64,000 nucleotides of DNA, from the NCBI GenBank assembly GCA_949295115.1, contig CASFJU010000001.1:62001-126000 (forward strand), in the 5' to 3' direction. Below are positions 5,113-41,436 of the stretch, piece by piece; the stretch's first letter is position 1; each line of letters opens with the position of its first letter. The notes beneath the pieces were generated by a model. It did no database searches, was not told the origin of the DNA, and was given only the letters and a program-made list of their open reading frames with translations. The stretch is from an uncultured Phascolarctobacterium sp. (GTDB lineage: Bacteria; Bacillota; Negativicutes; Acidaminococcales; Acidaminococcaceae). Made by a program: the position numbers and the translations under genes.

Positions 5113-7737
5113 ATGAAGTATATGACTGGCAACGAAATCCGTGCAAAATTTTTAAAGTTTTTTGAAGACAGAGGTCATCTCATTCTGCCGAGCGCTTCGC
5201 TCATTCCGCAGGATGACCCGACCCTGCTCTTAATCGGCGCAGGCATGGCGCCTTTTAAACCGTTTTTTACCGGCAAGATGAAACCGCCTTCTCCGCGTAT
5301 CACCACCTGCCAAAAATGCGTGCGCACCGGCGATATTGAAAATGTAGGCCGCACTGCGCGCCACCATACTTATTTTGAAATGCTGGGCGATTTTTCCTTC
5401 GGCGATTATTTCAAAAAGGAAATCATCCCCTGGAGCTGGGAGTTTTTGACCAAAGAGCTGGAACTGCCTGCCGATAAACTTTGGGTAACCATTTACCCGG
5501 ACGACGACGAAGCTTATGAAATCTGGCGTAATGTTGTGGGCGTGCCCGATGAACACATTGTGCGCCTTGAAGAAAACTTCTGGGAAACCGGCAGCGGCCC
5601 GTGCGGACCGGACAGCGAAATCCACATCGATATGGGCGAAGAACGCGGCTGCGGCAAACCGGACTGCAAACCGGGCTGCGACTGCGACAGATTCCTTGAA
5701 ATCTGGAACCTGGTGTTTACCCAGTACGACCAGCATGACGACGGCACTTACACCCCGCTGGCCAATAAAAACATTGATACCGGCGCAGGTTTGGAACGTC
5801 TTGCTTCCGTTTTGCAGGGCAAACCTTCCAACTTTGAAACCGATTTGATTTTCCCGATTATCGAACATGCGGCAAAAGTTGCCGGTGTTGAATACGGCAA
5901 GGATAAAAAGACCGACGTATCCTTAAAGGTTATTGCGGACCATGTACGCAGCATTACCTTTATGATTGCCGACGGTGTTCTGCCTTCCAACGAAGGCCGC
6001 GGTTATGTACTGCGCCGCGTGCTGCGCCGTGCTATCCGCCATGCGCGTTTGATTGGCATTGAAGACAAGTTCCTGTGCGATGCGGTTGATGTTGTTATTG
6101 ATATGTTCAAAGAGCCGTATCCGTACCTTGTTGAAAAAACCAACTTCCTGCACAAGGTTGTCGATATGGAAGAAACCAGCTTCCTGCGCACCCTGCGTCA
6201 GGGAACTGACCTTTTGAACGAAGAAATTGCCAAATTAAAGGCAGAAAATAAAACCGTGCTGGACGGCGCAACCGCTTTCCGCTTAAGCGATACCTTCGGC
6301 TTCCCGCGTGAGCTGACTGCCGAAATCCTTGAAGAAGAAGGCATGACGCTGGACGAAAAAGGCTTTAACGAAGCACTGGAAGTACAGCGCAAAATGGCGC
6401 GCGATGCCCGCGACGATAAGACCGGACGCCCGGTTATTTACAATACCCGCAGCATTGACCTTGCTGCTTTGAAGGTTGACGAAGGAGCAGAGGGCGGCAA
6501 AATTGTTGCCATGTACCCGGCGCACGACGCACAGCCTGTTGACAGCATGGAGGACGGCAAAAAAGCAGCAGTTATCTGCGATGTTACCGCGTTCCACGCT
6601 GAAGGCGGCGGACAGCTTGGCGACACCGGCCGCATTATTGCACCGGCAGGCGTGCTGGAAGTTGAAACCACCAAAAAACTGCCGGACGGCGCTACCATTA
6701 TGATTGGCACCGTGCTGGAAGGCACCGTTGCCGTTGGCGACGAAGTTAAATTTGAAATTGAACGCGCGCGCAAAAACGACATTGCCCGCAACCATACTGC
6801 AACCCACCTGCTGCATGCAGCGCTGAAACTTGTTCTGGGCGACCATGTAAACCAGGCAGGCAGCTATGTCGGACCGGACCGCCTGCGTTTCGACTTCTCG
6901 CATTTCTCTCCGGTAACGGAAGAAGAACTGCGCAAGGTTGAAGAAATCGTTAACGAGCAGATTCTGGCTGCGAAAGACGTAACCATTGAAGAACTGCCGA
7001 TTGACGAAGCTAAAAAACGCGGCGCTGTTGCCCTGTTCGGCGAAAAATACGGCAGCATTGTACGTGTTGTAACCGTGCCGGGTTATTCCATGGAATTCTG
7101 CGGCGGCGTGCATGTTAGCAATACCGCGCAAATCGGCATGTTTAAAATTCTGTCCGAATCCAGCACTGGCGCAGGCGTACGCCGTATTGAGGCTGTAACC
7201 GGCCACGGCGCGCTGGCTTATGTGCGTGAGATGGAAGACATGGTTAAAACCGCAGCTGCAGGCCTTAAATGCCGCAGCAACGACCTTTGCGCACGTATCT
7301 GCGCATTGCAGTCCGATTACAAAGCTGCCGAGCAGAAAATCGGCGAGCTGGAAGGCCAGATTGCCAAAGCACAGGTCAGCGGCGCGGCAGACTGCGTTTG
7401 CGATATTAAAGGCGTACCCGCACTGGTACAGAAAGTCAGCGCAGGCGATGTTGAAGCATTGCGTAACCTGGGCGACCAGATGCGTGACAAAGTCGGCGGC
7501 GTAGTAGTGCTGGCTGACGTTGTCGGCGACAACAAAATCAACATTTTGGCTATGGCAACCAAAGACGCTGTTGCCAAAGGCATCCACGCCGGACAGATTG
7601 TTAAGGAAGTTGCCAAAATCTGCGGCGGCGGCGGTGGCGGACGCCAGGATATGGCTCAGGCCGGCGGCAAGGACGCAGCAAAACTTGACGAAGCTTTGCA
7701 GGCTGCGCTGAAGGTTATCGAAGCACAGATTAAATAA
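5113..7737 (+). CDS. alaS: Alanine--tRNA ligase
   Basis: Charges tRNA-Ala with alanine. The 874 residues match the usual length. They carry the class II catalytic domain (MTGNEIRAKFLKFFEDRGH at the start; GLERLASVLQG), the editing domain with HTATH (His561, His565) and CGGVH (Cys663, His667) that together bind zinc, a coiled-coil segment, and the C-Ala domain with the glycine-rich CGGGGGGRQDMAQAGG. The ATG at 5113 is chosen because AAAGGAG at 5094-5100 precedes it, while the farther in-frame TTG at 5041 is the promoter -35 box. No T-box leader is present; instead a perfect inverted repeat overlaps the promoter. Confidence 0.96.
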   Translation: MKYMTGNEIRAKFLKFFEDRGHLILPSASLIPQDDPTLLLIGAGMAPFKPFFTGKMKPPSPRITTCQKCVRTGDIENVGRTARHHTYFEMLGDFSFGDYFKKEIIPWSWEFLTKELELPADKLWVTIYPDDDEAYEIWRNVVGVPDEHIVRLEENFWETGSGPCGPDSEIHIDMGEERGCGKPDCKPGCDCDRFLEIWNLVFTQYDQHDDGTYTPLANKNIDTGAGLERLASVLQGKPSNFETDLIFPIIEHAAKVAGVEYGKDKKTDVSLKVIADHVRSITFMIADGVLPSNEGRGYVLRRVLRRAIRHARLIGIEDKFLCDAVDVVIDMFKEPYPYLVEKTNFLHKVVDMEETSFLRTLRQGTDLLNEEIAKLKAENKTVLDGATAFRLSDTFGFPRELTAEILEEEGMTLDEKGFNEALEVQRKMARDARDDKTGRPVIYNTRSIDLAALKVDEGAEGGKIVAMYPAHDAQPVDSMEDGKKAAVICDVTAFHAEGGGQLGDTGRIIAPAGVLEVETTKKLPDGATIMIGTVLEGTVAVGDEVKFEIERARKNDIARNHTATHLLHAALKLVLGDHVNQAGSYVGPDRLRFDFSHFSPVTEEELRKVEEIVNEQILAAKDVTIEELPIDEAKKRGAVALFGEKYGSIVRVVTVPGYSMEFCGGVHVSNTAQIGMFKILSESSTGAGVRRIEAVTGHGALAYVREMEDMVKTAAAGLKCRSNDLCARICALQSDYKAAEQKIGELEGQIAKAQVSGAADCVCDIKGVPALVQKVSAGDVEALRNLGDQMRDKVGGVVVLADVVGDNKINILAMATKDAVAKGIHAGQIVKEVAKICGGGGGGRQDMAQAGGKDAAKLDEALQAALKVIEAQIK

Positions 7738-31194: not shown

Positions 31195-31227
31195 TTTTTA
31201 TACCTATACCGGTATATAGTATAAAAA
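31195..31227. promoter_or_regulatory. Palindromic operator candidate upstream of B12 riboswitch 1
   Basis: Core palindrome TATACCGGTATA (31205-31216) inside longer arms TTTTTATAC (31195-31203) and GTATAAAAA (31219-31227). Bases 31200-31225 match 32996-33021, upstream of riboswitch 2, at 22 of 26 positions, and both copies start 80 bp before their -10 box. Confidence 0.6.
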
Positions 31228-31256
31228 TTTAAATAAGAATTAAAAATAAATAATTA

Positions 31257-31285
31257 TTGACACTAATAATAAATAGTGCTAATAT
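31257..31285 (+). promoter_or_regulatory. Promoter of riboswitch 1 / SLH porin
   Basis: TTGACA (31257-31262), 17-bp spacer, TAATAT (31280-31285) with an extended TGC just before it. A CACTA/TAGTG inverted repeat (31261-31278) lies in the spacer. Confidence 0.7.
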
Positions 31286-31308
31286 AATGGCATAACTTAA
31301 TACAGCAT

Positions 31309-31475
31309 GTACAGTAATGTTAACCGGTGCAAGTCCGGTGCGGTCCCGCCGCTGTAAGGGCGCTTAACTTATTCTTTGCAAGCCTTTTACCCCTGTAAAG
31401 CCCAAAGCCAGCAAGTTGCTGTACATAAGCATTGCAGCTTAACCTGCGGGAGACGGGTAATTAACATTCCGGCAT
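31309..31475 (+). ncRNA. Cobalamin riboswitch 1
   Basis: The core reads GTTAACCGGTGCAAGTCCGG then TGCGGTCCCGCCGCTGTAA, the hallmark B12-box region, with AAGCCAGCAAG farther on. The closing stem GTACAGTAA (31309-31317) pairs with TTGCTGTAC (31416-31424); CTGCGGGAGACGGG after it probably holds the kissing loop. The 3' limit is approximate. The terminator at 31499-31530 is the expression platform; B12 binding would stop transcription before the SLH porin. Confidence 0.9.
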
Positions 31476-31498
31476 AAGGCCGGATATACATGTTTTTT

Positions 31499-31530
31499 AC
31501 CGTTTCGGAGTATAACCGAAGCGGTTTTTT
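31499..31530 (+). terminator. Expression-platform terminator of riboswitch 1
   Basis: ACCGTTTCGG (31499-31508) pairs with CCGAAGCGGT (31516-31525), followed by TTTTT, 135 bp before the porin start. The 31531-31649 stretch shows no further feature. Confidence 0.85.
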
Positions 31531-31664
31531 ATTAGGTTTGTTCATTTTGCCGGTGCCCGCAGTTTGCAGTGTGGGCTGTTTAATTGCGGCAGGTTTAAGC
31601 CGCCTGCCGCGGATTTTACTTTTAAATGGCACAGCCGTTTATTTGTGACAGGAGGCATGGTAAA

Positions 31665-32900
31665 ATGAAAAAATCTTTGGTGCTTGCGGCGGCGATGGCT
31701 CTGGGCGTGACGGCGTCGGCGTATGCAGCCAATCCGTTCAGCGATGTGCCGCAAGGACACTGGGCGTATGACGCTGTAAACAAGCTTGCGGCAGAGGGCG
31801 TGGTGGACGGTTACCCTGACGGCACTTACGGCGGCGACAGGTTGATGACCCGCTACGAAATGGCGCAGATTGTTGCCAAAGCAATGGCGAAGGGCGCAAA
31901 TGTTGACAAGCTGGCAGCAGAATTTGCCGCTGAACTGGACAGCCTTGGCGTGCGTGTGGCGAACCTCGAAAACAAAACCGATAACGTAAAAATTACCGGT
32001 CAGGTACGTTACGAATACGGTGACCGCAGCGGCGATTTTGATAAAAAAGGCAAAGTTGCCAAACACCGCTTGCGTACCCGTTTGTTCGTTAACGGGCAGA
32101 TTAACGAGGATTGGAGCTACACCGGGCGTTTGCAGAACGACCAGAACCTTGCCGATGCCAAAGGCAACGACGATTTGAAACTGAATCAGGCTTATGTATC
32201 CGGTAAGCTGGGCGGCTTAAAGGTTATCGCCGGTAAGGGCGGCCATTACCTTGCCAACGGTTATCTGTATGATGACACCGCGGAGTTTATCCGCGCAAGC
32301 TATGGCAAGGATGTAAAAGTAAGCGCTTATTACGGCAAGCCGACCGATTACGGTTACGATAAAATGTGGGGCGCGGAAGTCAGCGGCAGGCTTGGCGATT
32401 TAAGCCTTTCCGCAGGTTATGATGAATTTAAAGACGCCGCTGGCGCCAACGCCATGACGTTAACCGGCTTTGTACCGACGGCGGAAGGCGGCGATAATTC
32501 CGTATGGAACGTAAGCGCCAAATATAATTTTGGCGATGTTCAGCTGGCGGCAACTTATTTAAATTCCGACAACGATAAAGCTACGGATATTGCGCCCGGT
32601 GCGGATGATGACGGTTACGTTATCGGCCTTAACTACAAGGGCGCCGATAAAAACAAGCCCGGAAGCTATGGTCTGTTTGCCAATTATTACAATCAGGGCG
32701 TGGGCACAACGGTTGCGCACACCATGTTTACCGGCGACTGGGATTTATTTGCCAAGGAAGGCTTTAAAGGTTACATGGTTGGCGGTGGTGTAACCGTTGC
32801 CAAAAACATGGTTTACCAGCTGCACTACTACGACCTTGAAGGCAAGGAAAGCGGCCTTGATGACAGAGTTATCTGGAGCCGTTTACAGTTTATGTTCTAA
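31665..32900 (+). CDS. SLH-domain outer-membrane porin (OmpM-like)
   Basis: Outer-membrane channel of 411 residues. A signal peptide ends at ASAYAA (about residue 22). One S-layer homology domain follows (NPFSDVPQGHWAYDAVNKLA, GVVDGYPDGTYGGDRLMTRYE), which in Negativicutes binds the cell wall; then a short coiled coil (KLAAEFAAELDSLGVRVANLE) and a beta-barrel from about residue 100 with alternating aromatic strands, ending in WSRLQFMF. The ATG at 31665 has AGGAGG upstream; an earlier in-frame start would lack a ribosome site and put residues before the signal peptide. Unusually for such a porin, it is under a cobalamin riboswitch, so it may admit cobalt, nickel or corrinoids. Confidence 0.9.
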   Translation: MKKSLVLAAAMALGVTASAYAANPFSDVPQGHWAYDAVNKLAAEGVVDGYPDGTYGGDRLMTRYEMAQIVAKAMAKGANVDKLAAEFAAELDSLGVRVANLENKTDNVKITGQVRYEYGDRSGDFDKKGKVAKHRLRTRLFVNGQINEDWSYTGRLQNDQNLADAKGNDDLKLNQAYVSGKLGGLKVIAGKGGHYLANGYLYDDTAEFIRASYGKDVKVSAYYGKPTDYGYDKMWGAEVSGRLGDLSLSAGYDEFKDAAGANAMTLTGFVPTAEGGDNSVWNVSAKYNFGDVQLAATYLNSDNDKATDIAPGADDDGYVIGLNYKGADKNKPGSYGLFANYYNQGVGTTVAHTMFTGDWDLFAKEGFKGYMVGGGVTVAKNMVYQLHYYDLEGKESGLDDRVIWSRLQFMF

Positions 32901-32950
32901 AATTTAATGTTTGATTTTGATTACTGCTTAATTTCTTACTACTGTTGCAG

Positions 32951-32979
32951 AAAGCCCCGCATGCCCGCGGCGGCTTTTT
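32951..32979 (+). terminator. Terminator after the SLH porin
   Basis: AAAGCC-CCGC (32951-32960) pairs with GCGG-C-GGCTTT (32967-32977), with one bulge, then T residues. Confidence 0.7.
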
Positions 32980-32992
32980 GCATTTTACGGCA

Positions 32993-33021
32993 GGTATACC
33001 CATACGGGTATACCGTATAAA
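32993..33021. promoter_or_regulatory. Palindromic operator candidate upstream of B12 riboswitch 2
   Basis: Perfect 9-bp inverted repeat GGTATACCC (32993-33001) / GGGTATACC (33006-33014), followed by GTATAAA. Second copy of the 26-bp element described at 31195. The TACC..GGTA half-sites around a G/C centre resemble operators of the CsoR/RcnR metal-sensor family, which is an inference only. Confidence 0.6.
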
Positions 33022-33052
33022 TTACTAATTGAAACATTTTACAAGAAAATTA

Positions 33053-33081
33053 TTTACTTTAATAGGAATTAGTGCTACAAT
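33053..33081 (+). promoter_or_regulatory. Promoter of riboswitch 2 / Nik-type ABC operon
   Basis: TTTACT (33053-33058), 17-bp spacer, TACAAT (33076-33081) preceded by TGC. It aligns with the promoter at 31257: both share TTAATA/CTAATA and TAGTGCTA. Confidence 0.7.
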
Positions 33082-33106
33082 AAGTCTATGATAACTGAAG
33101 AACGTT

Positions 33107-33245
33107 GTTAAAGGTGCCCGCGAGGGGTAAATCAGGGAAGCCGGTGCAAATCCGGCACGGTCACGCCACTGTAAGCACGCAGGTGTAAGTCAGAGCGCAG
33201 CCTTTAACGCTTTCCGGTGCTGCGGGTGACGGCGAGGTGGCGAGA
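33107..33245 (+). ncRNA. Cobalamin riboswitch 2
   Basis: Classical B12 element: GAAGCCGGTGCAAATCCGGC, then ACGGTCACGCCACTGTAA, then AAGTCAGAG. The closing stem GTTAAAGG (33107-33114) pairs with CCTTTAAC (33201-33208); the GC-rich segment to about 33245 probably carries the kissing loop. It is closer to consensus than riboswitch 1. It controls the five-gene importer operon. Confidence 0.94.
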
Positions 33246-33304: not shown

Positions 33305-33340
33305 TGTTTACGGACTTGTTTGTGATGGAGATGTTTGGTT

Positions 33341-34285
33341 GTGACTAATAAGCAATTATTAAGCCGCATAGCGCAGATAGTGGTTGTCCTTCTGGGCATC
33401 AGTTTTATAACTTTTGCGCTGGTTATGCTGTCACCGGGCGACCCGGTGCGCCAGATGATTGCCGGCAACGAAGATATTATCGTCAGCCAGCAGGAAATTG
33501 ACGCACTGCGCCATGAGCTGGGGCTGGATAAACCGTTTATTTTCCAGTATCTGGACTGGCTGGGTCGCGCTGTACAGGGCGACTTTGGCTTCTCTTACAT
33601 GGTTAAAAAGCCGGTAGTGGAGCAGCTTATGGAAAGCCTGCCCGCAACGGTAATACTGGCACTGGCTTCAACGGCGTTCATGCTGGCGGTTTCCATACCG
33701 GCAGGCATTTACAGCGCCGTTAAGCATGGTAGCGTGTTTGATTACGTTGTGCGCGGGTTAACCTTCGTCGGCGTTTCCGTCCCTAACTTTTGGATGGGCT
33801 TAATGCTTTTATGGATTTTCGGTTTAAAACTGCGGCTTCTGCCGATTGTCGGCGGTCGCGTAAGCCTTGAAACTTTAATTTTACCGGCGCTGACGCTGGG
33901 TATTGTTATGGCGTCCAAATTTACGCGGCAGGTGCGTACTGCCGTACTGGAGGAACTGAATCAGGATTACGTTGTGGGTGCGCGTGCCCGCGGCATGAGC
34001 GAAAGCCATATTTTATGGAAGGAAGTTCTGCCCAACGCTATGCTGCCGCTGATTACGCTGCTCGGCCTTTCCTTCGGCAACCTGCTGGGCGGTGCGGCCG
34101 TTGTGGAAATTGTATTTTCGTGGCCGGGGCTGGGTTACCTTGCGGTGCAAAGCATCATCTACCGCGATTTTCAGCTGGTGCAGGGCATTGTGCTGTGGAT
34201 TGCGCTGATGTACATGGTGATTAACCTTATCATCGACGCTTCCTACAACCATCTTGACCCGCGCTTAAGAAAGGCAGGCAGGTAA
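33341..34285 (+). CDS. ABC transporter permease, NikB/DppB type
   Basis: First permease of a nickel/peptide-type importer, 314 residues with six predicted membrane helices. The N-terminal helix RIAQIVVVLLGISFITFALVM and LSPGDPVRQM are typical of the DppB/NikB family, and the EAA loop for the ATPases reads VGARARGMSESHILWKEVLPNAMLP. Start is ambiguous: GTG 33341 is 10 bp after GGAG (33327-33330); TTG 33335 is the alternative. It is the first gene behind cobalamin riboswitch 2. Confidence 0.88.
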   Translation: MTNKQLLSRIAQIVVVLLGISFITFALVMLSPGDPVRQMIAGNEDIIVSQQEIDALRHELGLDKPFIFQYLDWLGRAVQGDFGFSYMVKKPVVEQLMESLPATVILALASTAFMLAVSIPAGIYSAVKHGSVFDYVVRGLTFVGVSVPNFWMGLMLLWIFGLKLRLLPIVGGRVSLETLILPALTLGIVMASKFTRQVRTAVLEELNQDYVVGARARGMSESHILWKEVLPNAMLPLITLLGLSFGNLLGGAAVVEIVFSWPGLGYLAVQSIIYRDFQLVQGIVLWIALMYMVINLIIDASYNHLDPRLRKAGR

Positions 34286-34286
34286 T

Positions 34287-35117
34287 ATGCAGACACTTAT
34301 CAATGGGCTTAAAACCAACCGTGCCTTTGCCGTAACCAGCTTTTTTGTGCTGCTTTTAATTGCCGTCGCGCTGGCAGCGCCGTTAATTGCGCCTTACGAC
34401 CCGCTGGAGGCAACGATGCAGAACGCTTACCTTGCGCCCAATGCCGACCATTGGTTTGGCACGGATAAGCTGGGGCGCGATAATTTCAGCCGCGTTTTGT
34501 ACGGTGCGGCGTATTCTTTAAGCAGCGTGCTGCTGCTGGTAACTGTAATTTTTATTATCGGCACTACGCTGGGCGTTTTGGCAGGTTATTTTGGCGGTAA
34601 GGTGGACGTTGTTATCATGCGCGTGGCGGATATGATGATTTCCTTCCCGGGCATGATTTTGGCGATTGCCATTGCGGGCATTCTGGGCGGCAGCCTGATT
34701 AACGCGATTATTGCGCTGACGGTTGTAACGTGGACAAAGTACGCGCGCCTGGCACGCAGCATGGTTTTAAAAGTAAAAAAACGTGATTTTGTCGAAGCAG
34801 CCATCGTCAACGGCGGCACTTCAACACATATATTATGGAAACATATTTTGCCGAACATTTTGCCGCTGATGGTTATTACGGCGGCGTCCGATATCGGCGC
34901 GATGATGATGGAACTGGCAGGGCTTTCGTTTCTGGGCTTCGGCTCGCAGCCGCCTGCGCCTGAATGGGGCTTAATGCTTAACGAGGGCAGGCAGCAGCTG
35001 CAAACAGCGCCGTGGCTGATGATTTTCCCGGGGCTTGCCATTTTTATAACGGTTGTAATTTTTAACCTGTGGGGCGACGCACTGCGTGATGTGCTGGACC
35101 CGCGGCAGGAAGAATAG
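34287..35117 (+). CDS. ABC transporter permease, NikC/DppC type
   Basis: Second permease, 276 residues. It has the N-terminal helix and APYDPLE loop of the DppC/NikC family, HWFGTDKLGRDNFSRVLYGA, and the EAA loop VEAAIVNGGTSTHILWKHILPN. It starts 1 bp after the stop of the first permease, so the two are coupled and form a heterodimer in the inner membrane. The substrate is not fixed by sequence. Confidence 0.9.
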   Translation: MQTLINGLKTNRAFAVTSFFVLLLIAVALAAPLIAPYDPLEATMQNAYLAPNADHWFGTDKLGRDNFSRVLYGAAYSLSSVLLLVTVIFIIGTTLGVLAGYFGGKVDVVIMRVADMMISFPGMILAIAIAGILGGSLINAIIALTVVTWTKYARLARSMVLKVKKRDFVEAAIVNGGTSTHILWKHILPNILPLMVITAASDIGAMMMELAGLSFLGFGSQPPAPEWGLMLNEGRQQLQTAPWLMIFPGLAIFITVVIFNLWGDALRDVLDPRQEE

Positions 35118-35141
35118 GGTTTTAGAGAGGAAGATGGATTT

Positions 35142-36722
35142 ATGAATAAAGCGGCTAAACTTACGGCGGCACTTGCAATGATGGGGCTTTTGGCGTTTGC
35201 GGCGGCTGGCTGCGGCGGCGACGATAAAAGCGCGGCGGCAACCGGCGACACCTTAAAATTTGGCGTTACCAATTTTGCCGACAGCCTTGAACCGACCGAT
35301 AATTATTTTGGCTGGGTGGTAATGCGTTACGGCCTTGGCGAATGTCTTGTAAAATTTGACGAGAAGATGAACGCCGTGCCCTGGCTGGCAGAAAGCTGGA
35401 GCGTCAGCGACGATAAGCTGACATGGACTTTTAAAATTAACGATAAAGCCGTGTTCAGCAACGGCAACAAAGTAACAGGTGAAGCCGTTAAAAAATCCAT
35501 TGAACGTACTTTTGAAAAAGCTGCGCGCGCGCATGCCATGTTTGAGCCTGCAAGCATCACGGCAGACGGACAGAACGTAATTATTAAAACCCAAACGCCG
35601 GTGGCAACTCTGCCGGGCATGCTGGGCGACCCGCTGTTCATAATTGTTGATACCAGCGTGACGGACCGCGATTATGCATCACAGGGACCCATCTGCACCG
35701 GCCCGTATGTTGTTAAGGAATACAGCAAGGCCAAAGCAGTTATGGACGCCAACCCCAATTACTGGGACGGCGAAGTGCCGTATAAACATGTCGAAATTCC
35801 GACTATTGACGACCCTAACACCCGTGCCATGGCTTTGCAGAGCGGCGAAATTGACATGGCTGTCAACATCGCCCCCGGCGATTTGCAGCTTTTTGAAGAT
35901 AAGGATAGATTCAACATCAGTACCATTGCGTCCCTGCGTGACGTTTTAGCACGCATTAACGTGGCAGACGGCAAGCCGATGGCTGATAAACGTCTGCGTG
36001 AAGCGCTTTTAAGCTCGCTGGACCGCGAAACCTACTGCAAGGTACTGCTTAAAGATACCTTTGTGCCGGGCGGTCCGTATCTGCCGCCTTCCGTCGATTA
36101 CGGCTTTGATGAAATTAAGGCGCTGGATAAAAACCAGTACAATGTAGAGCGCGCCAAACAGCTTCTGGCGGAAGCCGGCTGGAAGGATACCAACAACGAC
36201 GGCTATGTGGATAAGGATGGCAAGAACCTTGAGCTGGACTTTATCTTTTACAGCGGACGCGCCGAGCTGCCGCTGTTTGCCGAAGCAACACAGGCTGATG
36301 CCAAAAAGGCTGGCATTAAAATAAACCTTAAAAATGTGGATTACAACGTGCTGGACGGTATCGGCACGCGCGGCGAATATGACCTGTTGATTTCCAACAT
36401 TTTAACGCTTGCGGCGGGTGACCCGGAGGTATTTATCAACCAGTACCTTAAAACCAATGTTAACGGCAGCAACCCGCAGAACGGCAGTGGTTACAGCAAT
36501 CCTGCGTTTGACGCTTTAAGCGACAGGCTGGCAATGGAATTTGACCCTGCCAAACGCCGTGCGCTGATTATTGATATGCAGAAGATTATTATGGAAGACG
36601 CTGCTTCGCTGGTGTTCGGCTACCCGGAAACCAATATGATAAGCAGTAAGGCAGTGGCCAACGCCAAAATTATGCCGTGCGATTATTACTGGCTGACGAA
36701 GGACGTTAAACCTGCCAAATAA
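35142..36722 (+). CDS. ABC transporter substrate-binding lipoprotein, NikA/OppA type
   Basis: 526-residue family 5 binding protein. The signal sequence ends in a lipobox AAGC, making Cys24 the lipidated residue, so it is tethered to the outer face of the inner membrane. Family hallmarks are LAESWSVSDDKLTWTFKI, KAVFSNGNKVTGEAVKKSIERT and the conserved YGFDEIKALDKNQYNVERAK region. NikA and OppA members differ in pocket residues that cannot be judged by eye. Being behind a B12 riboswitch, likely ligands are a cobalt or nickel chelate or a corrinoid precursor rather than a nutrient peptide. Confidence 0.88.
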   Translation: MNKAAKLTAALAMMGLLAFAAAGCGGDDKSAAATGDTLKFGVTNFADSLEPTDNYFGWVVMRYGLGECLVKFDEKMNAVPWLAESWSVSDDKLTWTFKINDKAVFSNGNKVTGEAVKKSIERTFEKAARAHAMFEPASITADGQNVIIKTQTPVATLPGMLGDPLFIIVDTSVTDRDYASQGPICTGPYVVKEYSKAKAVMDANPNYWDGEVPYKHVEIPTIDDPNTRAMALQSGEIDMAVNIAPGDLQLFEDKDRFNISTIASLRDVLARINVADGKPMADKRLREALLSSLDRETYCKVLLKDTFVPGGPYLPPSVDYGFDEIKALDKNQYNVERAKQLLAEAGWKDTNNDGYVDKDGKNLELDFIFYSGRAELPLFAEATQADAKKAGIKINLKNVDYNVLDGIGTRGEYDLLISNILTLAAGDPEVFINQYLKTNVNGSNPQNGSGYSNPAFDALSDRLAMEFDPAKRRALIIDMQKIIMEDAASLVFGYPETNMISSKAVANAKIMPCDYYWLTKDVKPAK

Positions 36723-36732
36723 GGAGTAAGCA

Positions 36733-37524
36733 ATGCTTCTGGAAGTTAAGGATTTAAACATCAGCTACGGCGATAAACTGACCGTAAGCGGTGTTAATTT
36801 GGAACTGAATACCGGTGAAATCATGTCGATTGTAGGCGAATCCGGCAGCGGCAAAACCACGGTTATCCGTGCCATTATGGGCTGCCTGCCGGGACGCGGG
36901 CATGTCAGCGGCGGCAGCATAATTTTTGAAGGGCGTGATATGCTGAAAAATACGCCGAAAGAGTGGCGGCAGTTGTGCGGGCGAGAGATGTCGATGATTT
37001 TTCAGGACAGCGGCAACATGATTAACCCTATTCGCCGCATAGGCGAACAGTTTGTTGATTATATCCGCACGCATGCGCCGGAAAAAACAAAAGCCGAAGC
37101 TGCGGAAATGGCGAAAGACATGCTGAACAAAGTACGTCTGCCGAATCCGGAAAGCATTATGCAGAGTTATCCGTTTGAGCTTTCGGGCGGCATGCGCCAG
37201 CGCGTGGGCATTGCCATGGCTATGGTGTTCCGCCCCAAGCTGCTTCTGGCAGATGAACCGACAAGCGCGCTTGACGTAACAACGCAGGCACAGATTATCC
37301 GCCAGATTGTCGATATCCGCAATGAGTTTGGCGTGGCGGTAATTCTGGTTACACATAATTTGGGTGTGGCGTCGTATGTATCCAACAAACTGGTGGTTAT
37401 GAAAAACGGGCGCGTGGTGGAAAGCGGCAAACGCGAAGTTATCAGCAATCCGCAGGACGCTTACACCAAAGAGCTGCTGGCAGCCGTGCCGGTAGTGGGG
37501 GAGGTAAAATATTATGACCGCTAA
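36733..37524 (+). CDS. ABC transporter ATP-binding protein, NikD/DppD type
   Basis: 263-residue ATPase. Walker [11 protein letters not shown]-loop [10 protein letters not shown], signature [14 protein letters not shown] and Walker [13 protein letters not shown] are intact, with the switch His in VTHNLG. It is shorter than typical DppD because the C-terminal Cys-rich extension is almost absent, a feature shared with NikD. Its end overlaps the next gene by 11 bp. Confidence 0.9.
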
Positions 37525-38479
37525 TCAGCCCCCTGTTGTATTGGAAATTAAAAATTTAACCAAAAAGTTTGCGGTGGATGGCGGCAGGTTTTTGACCGCC
37601 TGCGACAACATCAGCCTGAAGGCTTATGCAGGGCAGACGCTGGGCATTATCGGCGAATCGGGCTGCGGCAAAAGCACGCTGGTGCGCACTGTTCTGCAAA
37701 TTCATCCCGCTACAAGCGGCGAGGTTATTTTTGAAGGGCAGGATATTTTAAAACTGCGCGGCGAGGCAGCACGCCAGAACCGCCGCAAAATACAGATGGT
37801 GTTTCAGGACCCGGCGGCAGCGTTTAACCCCAAAATGAAGGTTAAGGAGATTGTGACGGAGCCGCTGTTAAACTTTGGTTTGATTAAAAAGAGCGAAGTG
37901 GACGCCAGGGCGGCAGAGCTTTTGCAAATGGTGGAGCTGCCGGTGGAATTTATGGACCGTTCCCCGCATAACATGAGCGGTGGGCAGCGTCAGCGTCTGG
38001 GCATTGCGCGTGCGCTTTCGCTGGAGCCGAAGATTGTGGTGTGCGACGAGGCAACGAGCGCGCTGGATGTTTCCGTGCAGGAAAAAATCTGCGAGCTGTT
38101 GGTGCGTTTACAGAAGGAAAAGGGGATAACGTACCTTTTTATCTGCCACGACATCGGGCTTGTGGATTTGATGTGCCATCAGGTTGCCGTTATGTATCTG
38201 GGCAACGTGGTGGAATATATTGGCGGCGGGCGCAGAATAAGCACCGAAGGCATGCACCCGTACACCAAAGCGTTGCTGAAGGCAGTGTTTAAGGTTGATT
38301 TTAAACCGGGCGAGCGCATTGAGCCGCTGGAGAGTGAAGTGCCAAGCCCGCTGGATTTGCCGCAGGGCTGCCCGTTTGCCAGCCGTTGCGAATTTTGCAC
38401 AGAGCAGTGCCACTGCGAGAAACCTGCGCTTAAAGAAGTTGCACCTGGGCATTTTGTTGCGTGCCACCTTGTAAAATAA
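37514..38479 (+). CDS. ABC transporter ATP-binding protein, NikE/DppF type
   Basis: 321-residue second ATPase. Walker A GESGCGKST, signature MSGGQRQRLGIARAL, Walker B IVVCDEATSALD and switch His ICHDIG are present. The C-terminal oligopeptide/dipeptide domain is kept, with CPFASRCEFCTEQCHCEKP; in the peptide-type ATPases of this class such cysteines can bind an iron-sulfur cluster. It completes a five-gene permease-permease-binding protein-ATPase-ATPase operon, closed by a terminator. Confidence 0.9.
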   Translation: MTANQPPVVLEIKNLTKKFAVDGGRFLTACDNISLKAYAGQTLGIIGESGCGKSTLVRTVLQIHPATSGEVIFEGQDILKLRGEAARQNRRKIQMVFQDPAAAFNPKMKVKEIVTEPLLNFGLIKKSEVDARAAELLQMVELPVEFMDRSPHNMSGGQRQRLGIARALSLEPKIVVCDEATSALDVSVQEKICELLVRLQKEKGITYLFICHDIGLVDLMCHQVAVMYLGNVVEYIGGGRRISTEGMHPYTKALLKAVFKVDFKPGERIEPLESEVPSPLDLPQGCPFASRCEFCTEQCHCEKPALKEVAPGHFVACHLVK

Positions 38480-38613: not shown

Positions 38614-38629
38614 ATGAATGATTGCTCAT
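38614..38629. promoter_or_regulatory. ArsR/SmtB-like operator, copy 2
   Basis: Exact second copy of the 16-bp site, 70 bp downstream of the first and just before the ribosome site AAAGGAGG (38635-38642). Two bound dimers could form a loop or a road-block. Confidence 0.65.
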
Positions 38630-38649
38630 TTATAAAAGGAGGTTTAACG

Positions 38650-41436
38650 ATGACAGCAAAGGAAATGCTGCACGAACATAAACATGAAGGGTGCTGCTGC
38701 GGACATGAACATAACCATAGTCATGAACACGCACACAGCCACGGCGATGGCTGTGATTGCGGACATGAACACCATCATGACCATGGAGATAATTGCGGTT
38801 GCGGACATGAACACCATCATGACCATGGAGATAATTGCGGTTGCGGACATGACCACGGTCATCAGCATAATCACGACGACGCGTGCGGCTGTGGTGAAGA
38901 ACACCACCACGAACACGGAGAAGAATGTGGTTGTGGGCATGACCATCAGCACGGGCATGACCACCATGTGCCGGGGCATCCGGCAGACTGCCAGTGCGAA
39001 ATTTGCCATCCGCACGAAGAATACTGCGATGTGTGCGGTGAAAGTTTAGAGAACTGCACCTGCAAAATGCCTGATGCAGACTGCGTAAAAAAGGTATATA
39101 TTTTAAAAAATCTGGGTTGTGCCAACTGCGCCGCCAAAATGGAACACCTCATCAAAGAACTGCCGGGCGTGCAGTACGCCAGCATAAGCTACGTTACCAA
39201 ACAGCTGCGCCTTTCGGCGAAGGACCATGCCGCAGTACTGCCTGCTATCCGCGAAATCTGCGCAAGCATTGAAAGTGATGTGGAGGTAGTGCCGCGTGAG
39301 GGCGAAGGGCCGTTTAAATTTGCAACCAAAGTTTATGTTTTGCAAAACCTTGGCTGCGCCAACTGTGCGGCTAAAATGGAGCGCGCCATTAACAACCTGC
39401 CGGAGGTTACGGAAGCGACGATTACTTTTGCGACCAAACAGCTTAAAGTAACGGCGAAAGCAGAAAGCGACCTGCTGCCGGAATTGCAGAAAATCTGCGC
39501 CGGTATTGAAAGCGAAGTTGTTGTTAAAGAGCGTGACGGCGGGCCGGTGCTGGCAGCGCATGTGGAGGAGCGCAAACGCAGCGGCGGTTTGAGCGTGTCT
39601 TCGGAAACGCTGTCGCTTGCTGAAATCATCATCGGCGGCGTGCTGTTTATAGCTGCCGAATGGCTGGGCGTTGTGCCGGAAGCATACCACATTTACGTTT
39701 TGGGCGTGGCTTATGTGCTGCTGGGCGGGCGCATTGTGCTGACAGCGCTTAAAAACATGCTGCGCGGCAATGTGTTTGACGAAAACTTTTTGATGACGAT
39801 TGCTACCGTAGGCGCGTTTGTCATTGCCGCTTACGAAGAAGCTGTCGGCGTTATGTTCTTTTACCGCGTGGGCGAATATTTTGAACACCGCGCGGTGGAA
39901 AAAAGCCGCAGCCAGATTATGGACGCCGTGGATATGCGCCCTGAAACAGTCAACCTTTTGGTGGGCGACGATGTTAAAGTCATCCCCGCGGGTGATGTGC
40001 ATGTGGGCGATATCCTGCTGGTGCGTGCGGGCGATAGAATTCCGCTGGACGGCGTGGTTATTGACGGCGACAGCCTTGTTGATACATCCCCGGTGACGGG
40101 TGAGCCGGTGCCGGTGCGCAAGCATTACGGCGACGAAATTACCAGCGGCTGCATTAACACCAGCGGCATGCTTAAAATCCGCGTGGAAAAGGTGCTGGCG
40201 GAATCCATGGTTACGCGCATTTTAGACAGCGTGGAAAACGCCGCTGCCAACAAGCCTCAGATTGACCGCTTTATTACCCGCTTTGCGCGCGTGTACACGC
40301 CGTTTGTTGTTGTGGTGGCGCTGCTGACTGCGCTGGTGCCGGGCTACATTACCGGCGATTGGCAGCACTGGGTTTATACGGCGCTGACCTTCCTTGTTAT
40401 CAGCTGCCCGTGCGCTTTGGTACTCAGCGTGCCGCTGGCGTTCTTCTCAGGCATCGGCGCGGGCTCACGCGACGGTATTTTGTTTAAGGGCGGCAGTGCC
40501 ATGGAGGCGCTGAAAAATGTGCATGCCGTGGTTATGGATAAGACCGGCACGGTAACGCAGGGCAATTTTGTTGTGCAGAAAATCCTGCCGTCGCAGGGCG
40601 TGGCTGAAAACGATGTGCTTTTGGCTGCTGCCGGTGCGGAACTTGTCAGCGCGCACCCGATTGCCGTAAGCATTGTTAACGCCGCCAAAGAACGTGGGTT
40701 GGAGCCTGAGCGTCCGCAGAGCTTTGAAGAAACGGCAGGTGAGGGCATTGCAGCCCAAACGGAAGCAGGCACTGTACTGTGCGGCAGCCGCAAACTTTTA
40801 AAACGCTGCGGCGTGAAGTTTAACGAAGCAGAAACCGCAGATTACGGTACGGAAGTGCTGGTTGCCCAAAACGGAAAATACCTGGGCCAGCTGATTATTG
40901 CCGATACCATTAAGGCTGACGCTGTGGAAGCAGTTAAACGCATTAAAGCCATGGGGCTGACTACCGCCATGCTGACGGGTGACGCCGAAGCAAGCGCCAA
41001 TGCAGTTGCTGCGGCTGCGGGCATCGACGACGTGCGTGCCAAACTGCTTCCGCAGGATAAGCTGAACGAACTGGGACGCCTGCGCAGTAAGTACGGCAGC
41101 GTAATGTTTGTCGGTGACGGCATTAACGACGCACCGGTGCTGGCGGGCGCAGATGTCGGCGCGGCTATGGGCAGCGGTGCGGACGCAGCGCTGGAAGCAG
41201 CGGACGTGGTATTTATGAAGTCGGAAATGAACGCCATTCCGCAGGCATTGGGCATTGCACGCCGTACAAATAAAATTGCCTGGCAGAACGTAATCTTTGC
41301 GCTGGGCGTTAAAGCCGTAATTATGGTGGCAGGCCTTATGGGCTATGCCAGCATGTGGGCGGCAGTGTTTGCCGATACCGGCGTCGCCATGCTGTGCGTC
41401 TTAAACTCCATTCGTATTTTGTATGAGAAGAAGTGA
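38650..41436 (+). CDS. Heavy-metal translocating P1B-type ATPase (Zn/Cd/Co/Pb export, CadA/ZntA type)
   Basis: Inner-membrane metal exporter of 928 residues, larger than usual (about 700-750) because of its N-terminus. Residues 1-130 are rich in His, Cys and Asp with repeated CGCGHEHHHDHGDN-like units, followed by CEICHPHEEYCDVCGES. Two HMA domains follow, each with GCANCAAKME (157 and 235). Then come the membrane core with CPC at 586-588, the phosphorylation motif DKTGT (Asp630), SAHPIA, MLTGDAEASA and GDGINDAPVLAGADVG. The ATG at 38650 is set by AAAGGAGG; an earlier ATG at 38614 lies inside the second operator. CPC plus the His-rich tail favour Zn, Cd or Co over Cu. No regulator gene is adjacent. 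Confidence 0.93.
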   Translation: MTAKEMLHEHKHEGCCCGHEHNHSHEHAHSHGDGCDCGHEHHHDHGDNCGCGHEHHHDHGDNCGCGHDHGHQHNHDDACGCGEEHHHEHGEECGCGHDHQHGHDHHVPGHPADCQCEICHPHEEYCDVCGESLENCTCKMPDADCVKKVYILKNLGCANCAAKMEHLIKELPGVQYASISYVTKQLRLSAKDHAAVLPAIREICASIESDVEVVPREGEGPFKFATKVYVLQNLGCANCAAKMERAINNLPEVTEATITFATKQLKVTAKAESDLLPELQKICAGIESEVVVKERDGGPVLAAHVEERKRSGGLSVSSETLSLAEIIIGGVLFIAAEWLGVVPEAYHIYVLGVAYVLLGGRIVLTALKNMLRGNVFDENFLMTIATVGAFVIAAYEEAVGVMFFYRVGEYFEHRAVEKSRSQIMDAVDMRPETVNLLVGDDVKVIPAGDVHVGDILLVRAGDRIPLDGVVIDGDSLVDTSPVTGEPVPVRKHYGDEITSGCINTSGMLKIRVEKVLAESMVTRILDSVENAAANKPQIDRFITRFARVYTPFVVVVALLTALVPGYITGDWQHWVYTALTFLVISCPCALVLSVPLAFFSGIGAGSRDGILFKGGSAMEALKNVHAVVMDKTGTVTQGNFVVQKILPSQGVAENDVLLAAAGAELVSAHPIAVSIVNAAKERGLEPERPQSFEETAGEGIAAQTEAGTVLCGSRKLLKRCGVKFNEAETADYGTEVLVAQNGKYLGQLIIADTIKADAVEAVKRIKAMGLTTAMLTGDAEASANAVAAAAGIDDVRAKLLPQDKLNELGRLRSKYGSVMFVGDGINDAPVLAGADVGAAMGSGADAALEAADVVFMKSEMNAIPQALGIARRTNKIAWQNVIFALGVKAVIMVAGLMGYASMWAAVFADTGVAMLCVLNSIRILYEKK
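38761..38844 (+). repeat. Perfect 42-bp tandem duplication in the His-rich region
   Basis: Bases 38761-38802 and 38803-38844 are identical 42-mers (14 codons, frame kept), and a third, partial copy begins at 38845. The repeat lengthens the metal-binding tail by whole units. Confidence 0.95.

Follow-up and report, generated by a model that had tools for sequence, protein, structure and literature searches.

What control site do two neighbouring B12-riboswitch promoters of a Phascolarctobacterium genome share, and which regulator reads it? The promoters lie in a 64-kb stretch of genome G000 (Negativicutes; genome size 1.7 Mb), referred to below as the window. An earlier note on this DNA had pointed out a 26-bp palindromic element in front of each promoter, considered either selection or recent duplication as its origin, and proposed a control site resembling CsoR/RcnR/InrS operators, through which a protein might bring a metal input to the RNA switch.

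The boxes upstream of the ompM and nik riboswitches

Element 1 (31200–31225, ATACCTATACCGGTATATAGTATAAA) and element 2 (32996–33021, ATACCCATACGGGTATACCGTATAAA) differ at four of 26 positions on direct comparison; the identity of 22 of 26 noticed earlier is exact and far beyond chance. The degenerate 26-mer occurs at two places in the window, both of them the known elements, with an expectation of 0.00 from shuffling, and was never present in the shuffled windows. Both copies contain the inverted-repeat core TATACC-N6-GGTATA (31199–31216 and 32995–33012), followed 2–3 bp downstream by an extra GTAT half-site. The candidate CsoR-type operators, on the forward strand like all window features given coordinates in this section, read TATACC-TATACC-GGTATA (31199–31216) plus the half-site GTATAA (31219–31224) in copy 1 (31199–31225), and GGTATACCC-ATAC-GGGTATACC (32993–33014) plus GTATAA (33015–33020) in copy 2 (32993–33021), where the dyad is longer (GGTATACCC-N4-GGGTATACC). 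A promoter overlapping the box, with GTATAA as the -10 hexamer, was rejected by eye for want of a -35 at the proper distance; likewise rejected was the third half-site GTAT as a -10, which lies on the far side of the box at the deacylase promoter described below.

Copy 1 precedes the ompM (SLH-porin) promoter (31257–31285; TTGACA at 31257, N17, TAATAT at 31280) and copy 2 the nik operon promoter (33053–33081; TTTACT at 33053, N17, TACAAT at 33076), both with a TG extended -10. From the first base of each element it is 57 bp to the -35 and 80 bp to the -10, exactly as reported earlier for both promoters; the ompM promoter is conserved in relatives at an unchanged distance from the box, and the core of the nik promoter is kept in other genera. 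The promoter core around ATTAGNATTAGTGCTA, together with the extended -10 (31257–31288 and 33053–33081; L122–L132), is common to the riboswitch-nik promoters of several genera, box-less ones included.

Both promoters do lead into B12 riboswitches, with Rfam RF00174 matches above the gathering score at 31295–31437 (32.3 bits, gathering score 31.5) and 33095–33219 (47.7 bits). The genes behind them encode an OmpM-type outer-membrane porin with SLH and porin domains (31662–32900; PF00395, PF13609) and a five-gene nik/opp-type ABC importer of the nickel/cobalt class (33335–38479), comprising two permeases, a binding protein and two ATPases. The permeases score above the cut-offs of Opp2B (378 bits) and Opp2C (333 bits), families named nickel permeases, and the binding protein best matches Opp5A_nikA. 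The organism seems to be a B12 producer, since other riboswitches of G000 precede cobU/cobT-like and cbiD-like genes (names given by eye from the sequence; at cbiD the riboswitch match does not reach the gathering score). The region just downstream of the nik operon (38614–41436) encodes a P1B ATPase with a His/Cys-rich N terminus and two HMA domains, different from the csoR-linked ATPase discussed below.

A weight matrix was built only from csoR/ATPase operators of other organisms, sites independent of the window. It places copy 2 (26.5 bits) and copy 1 (21.3 bits) as the top two places in the window, the best score in 60 simulated 64-kb sequences being 15.5 bits, although the half-site part of these scores is partly built in because the matrix sites were gathered by the TACC-N6-GGTA pattern. 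The TAC/GTA dyad flanking G/C tracts that marks CsoR type 2 operators is present as TACCC-N4-GGGTA in copy 2 and most relatives and is weaker in copy 1 (TACCTATACCGGTA). The TAC-to-GTA spacing is 8 bp in the window elements and in nearly all boxes of the same CsoR group, not the 9 bp of type 2, which was seen only in the G026 and G011 boxes.

Genome-wide pattern searches located the core ATACCNATACNGGTAT without mismatch three times in 1.7 Mb, at the two window sites and before a gene of the AstE/AspA deacylase family. The exact motif is present in six of six genomes of the genus, where the reversed control pattern has no matches, and boxes stand at nik, ompM and the deacylase gene across Phascolarctobacterium. 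A looser search detected the deacylase box in G014 and G017 also, as ATACCCCTATGGGTAT; in G017 boxes were found at nik and the deacylase only. The deacylase gene (L003, 1625–2590) is a conserved third target and has no B12 riboswitch. G015 and G018 have an additional riboswitch-porin locus with a box (L148 and L147), in G018 on a different contig from nik, and the ompM1 box of G018 is slightly degenerate (ATACCCATACCTGTAT).

Two further sites with one mismatch, L004 and L005, score about 11.6–11.8 bits with the foreign-operator matrix. The weak box at L005 (1501–1516, ATACCCATACCCGTAT) immediately precedes the -35 of a MATE gene, in a -42.5-like position resembling that of the nik box in genus g9 described below; it is kept in three species (L005, and G015 and G018 at L236 and L237) and may be a weak fourth target. 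In G015 and G018 this box is divergent from a box-carrying promoter that is absent there in G000. Matches in G029, G030, G031, G038, G044 and G057 were rejected as operators because their context suggests coding sequence (a histidine-kinase G box or repeats), as were ATACC-N6-GGTAT matches within the coding sequences of ftsH and other genes.

Recent duplication of a promoter between the neighbouring riboswitch operons would make the box a functionless leftover, and the similar cores of the nik and ompM promoters, together with the 41-bp spacers of ompM1 and ompM3 (31 of 41 positions alike), fit such an origin. The nik and ompM spacers, however, are only marginally alike (23 of 41, compared with 17 by shuffling). 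All six species retain boxes, some of them at loci that are not linked and at the deacylase promoter, which is unrelated, and the box core differs between species yet preserves the dyad. A functionless leftover is therefore most improbable, and of the two origins considered in the earlier note selection is preferred to a recent duplication in place.

The candidate regulator and its own boxes

A search of the G000 genome for a CsoR/RcnR-family gene, as the earlier note had suggested, returned exactly one. It lies outside the window (G000:C2:59332–59568) and encodes a CsoR-family protein of 91 aa with a PF02583 domain (93.4 bits, cut-off 22.8). NikR was rejected as the regulator, the genome having no PF08753 match.

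The Cys-His-Cys metal ligands C34, H59 and C63 are invariant in alignment A1 and align with those of the CsoR structures 4m1p and 4adz; by this match the protein would read as a copper sensor. In CsoR of the Cu(I) type, a second-shell tyrosine before the first cysteine ligand matters. This residue is Tyr in 4m1p, 4adz and 3aai and Pro in nickel-sensing InrS, and in the seven aligned proteins the position before C34 is occupied by Pro or Ala, not by the Tyr of the Cu(I) type. Cys4 is invariant in the ortholog group of the G000 CsoR. According to NCBIfam, an intact ATPase of the csoR module exceeds both the cadmium-family and the copper-family cut-offs, by more for the cadmium family. The candidate metals are Cu(I) and a divalent ion such as Ni, Co or Zn.

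A scan with one genome per species recovered hundreds of CsoR relatives, the best 80 of which, from Clostridia, Desulfovibrionaceae, Eggerthella and other groups, share 82–100% identity; such high identity across these taxa implies gene transfer. CsoR conservation of 82–94% identity across several phyla of gut anaerobes (L153–L232) is unusual and points to wide transfer of the csoR-ATPase module. Among these best 80 of hundreds, TACC-N5..8-GGTA sites accompany csoR at 56 loci, the spacing being exactly 6 bp in nearly every case, and a P1B metal-exporting ATPase follows downstream at 46 (+5); many of the remaining loci end at a contig boundary. All 67 boxes with a scorable promoter are situated inside the core promoter of csoR or the ATPase, mostly at about -16.5 and +8.5. 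G014 has a box between csoR and the P1B ATPase, and G011 has one in the csoR-ATPase promoter. In genus g17 the csoR ortholog (82–85% identical) stands just 5' of a promoter, TTGACA-N17-TATAAT, whose spacer holds one box; another follows after 38 bp. Here a 27-codon ORF (MKMSFSKKYGFEYDNSFMFWGFLWLMK; L099, about 5508–5591) follows the dual-box CsoR promoter instead of the ATPase; its product is possibly a small membrane protein. The inspected matches away from csoR in 25 outside genomes with an ortholog CsoR are located at an ATPase promoter (L245) or at unrelated genes, and none of them has B12 genes behind it. The earlier note had taken a motif scattered widely with no link to metal or B12 genes as evidence against a control site; these matches supply no such refutation.

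A nikB gene with a B12 riboswitch was found in genera g1, g3, g8, g9, g13, g14 and g18, g1 being the genus of six genomes that includes G000; the upstream region of g3 is lost at a contig end. Riboswitch-nik promoters carry the box in g1 and g9 but not in g8, g13, g14 and g18. CsoR of the G000 type is encoded by all six g1 genomes and by G026 of g9, and by none of the box-less genomes; G027 of g9, a genome 73% complete, has the box without a match to the G000-type CsoR group. Counted by genome, CsoR is present in 7/8 cases with the box and in 0/8 without it (Fisher p 0.0014), but by clade the comparison is two versus four, so the co-occurrence is supportive, not decisive. Relatives that keep the riboswitch without the motif, named earlier as counter-evidence, thus do exist in four genera, but these genera are also without the G000-type CsoR, which supports the link between box and regulator.

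Some other regulator could bind the box, its association with CsoR being coincidental, and many CsoR sites do have a long G/C tract that the box lacks. This is very unlikely, given that in different phyla the promoters of csoR itself and of the neighbouring ATPase carry the same box, that box and G000-type CsoR co-occur within the family, and that the genome encodes a single CsoR but lacks NikR. On comparative-genomic grounds, the box is very probably the operator of the only CsoR-family protein of G000. The single CsoR gene, the shared box at the orthologs' own and ATPase promoters, and the co-occurrence lend support to the CsoR/RcnR/InrS-type control site proposed earlier, and this comparative evidence on regulator and operator also upholds, as a prediction, the second, protein-based metal input. 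Expression of ompM and nik probably responds to two sensors, a protein for metal and an RNA for B12.

Box position and the direction of control

The link between CsoR and the box is firm as a prediction; the regulatory sign is the most interesting question. Across all 12 riboswitch promoters measured (those of nik from six species, of ompM1 from three and of ompM3 from two, and a single ompM promoter of G014) the box centre lies 49.5 bp from the -35 and 72.5 bp from the -10, at about -84 from the predicted +1, the position of both window boxes. In six of six deacylase promoters the distances are 45.5–46.5 and 69.5–70.5 bp (about -82 from the predicted +1), and the box is reversed where asymmetric. 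Since the nik and ompM spacers are hardly alike and the nik leader of G016 is 19 bp shorter, the length between box and promoter is kept while the sequence drifts; common descent explains part of this fixed distance, as the promoters come from related species and are partly paralogous. The nik box of g9 (G027) is centred at -42.5, which is exactly 42 bp, or four helical turns, nearer than -84, and abuts the nik -35. Class I activator sites, as known for CRP, centre near -62, -72, -83 or -93, on the polymerase face, and activators of the CRP kind bind around -42 and -83. Relative to the predicted +1, the -84 position suggests an activator-like rather than a repressor-like site.

In the transferred module of csoR and a P1B metal-exporting ATPase, apo-CsoR bound to TATACC-N6-GGTATA boxes in core promoters would repress transcription until metal binding. 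In Phascolarctobacterium, the ATPase would have been lost or have decayed and CsoR been rewired to metal uptake (the OmpM porin and the nik Co/Ni importer) and to the AstE/AspA-like deacylase. Metal-free CsoR at -84, a class-I-like position, would touch RNA polymerase and aid transcription, metal binding would release CsoR and lower uptake, and B12 would then gate the ompM and nik transcripts via the riboswitch. With a sensor released by metal, a repressor-placed efflux box and an activator-placed uptake box, the same signal would turn efflux on and uptake off.

An ortholog of the csoR-linked ATPase was not found (E 1e-100) in five of the six genus genomes nor in G026. In G014 (Phascolarctobacterium sp. 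ET69; L091, 6831–8654) the P1B ATPase beside csoR lacks a stretch of about 35 residues that contains the actuator-domain TGES loop, and is therefore probably a decaying pump that does not work. The box and promoter before this shortened gene look intact. The simplest reading of these genomes is that the pump of the csoR-ATPase module was lost and the sensor took over uptake genes in the Phascolarctobacterium lineage.

The same CsoR on the same operator might instead repress from -84, two tetramers or DNA wrapping hindering RNA polymerase, so that metal would induce the uptake genes. The characterised CsoR/RcnR-family members in the literature consulted are repressors (PMC3902906, PMC10318464), the box is repressor-placed in csoR-ATPase modules, and the g9 box abuts the nik -35. 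However, with its centre at -84 the box lies clear of the promoter and keeps a constant 49.5 bp to the -35, the nik -35 and -10 (TTTACT/TACAAT) are weaker than those of the near-consensus ATPase-module promoters, and metal uptake induced by metal would be odd. Repression from -84 thus seems rather unlikely, while activation, with geometry as its basis, has an even chance or slightly better. Taken as a whole, a CsoR operator rewired to uptake genes, with apo-CsoR activating and B12 gating the transcript, is the best explanation and a reasonably likely one. More tentatively, and with somewhat less than an even chance, the same apo-CsoR would repress from the core promoter and activate from 84 bp upstream, giving opposite outputs to one metal signal and forming a two-input gate with the cobalamin riboswitches in Phascolarctobacterium.

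We know of no CsoR-family protein that acts as an activator. The open-access literature searched, subscription papers being outside its scope, contained neither a CsoR-family activator of uptake nor a combination of CsoR with cobalamin riboswitches. A protein metal sensor and a B12 riboswitch on the same transcripts would be a layout absent from that literature, here in the form of an efflux regulator that a common gut genus has rewired to genes for uptake. Should the -84 site act positively, the CsoR family would include an activator, and the pair of promoters would be a ready system for studying how operator position sets regulatory sign. A CsoR gene with Cys-His-Cys ligands could then not automatically be annotated as a copper-efflux repressor.

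Comparison with known metal-responsive systems

The CsoR copper repressors with type 2 operators from S. lividans, B. subtilis and Listeria likewise have a PF02583 domain with C-H-C ligands and a palindrome of TACCC/GGGTA half-sites beside short G/C tracts, and their consensus ATATACCCCTNAGGGGTATAT is close to the TATACCC-N4-GGGTATA of the G000-type boxes (PMC3902906). Known copper sites are of the form TAC-X9-GTA, whereas the boxes described here are TAC-X8-GTA. Copper CsoR targets copZA efflux from boxes in the core promoter, in contrast to the uptake genes with B12 riboswitches and the boxes at -84 in the window; ahead of the first Cys ligand the G000-type protein has Pro or Ala where copper CsoR has Tyr, and it carries the invariant extra Cys4. 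The CsoR meta-regulon of gut Firmicutes (PMC4938975) likewise comprises promoters of csoR and of P-type ATPases, many of them with a pair of boxes spaced by about 26 bp (25 bp in the csoR-ATPase modules here). In the text consulted, it covers csoR, ATPases and a few other families, and includes no promoter of an uptake transporter, a porin or a riboswitch such as those found here.

The Ni-Co sensors RcnR and InrS also belong to the CsoR family, and InrS shares the Pro before the Cys ligand in the alignment, but they repress efflux genes, unlike the uptake targets here. To our knowledge, they have no riboswitch partner. The RcnR site, TACT-G6-N-AGTA (PMC3902906), is unlike the box. Cobalt importers controlled by B12 riboswitches (PMC7689651) likewise place cobalt-uptake genes under cobalamin riboswitches; in the window a second, candidate protein-binding site is added ahead of the promoter. 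TTHA1953, a CsoR-like protein acting on the sox genes of Thermus (PMC10318464), likewise has non-efflux targets and TAC/GTA repeats without a long G/C tract; it differs in half-site spacing (TACNNTACNNNNGTANNGTA), in being a repressor, and in controlling sulfur genes.
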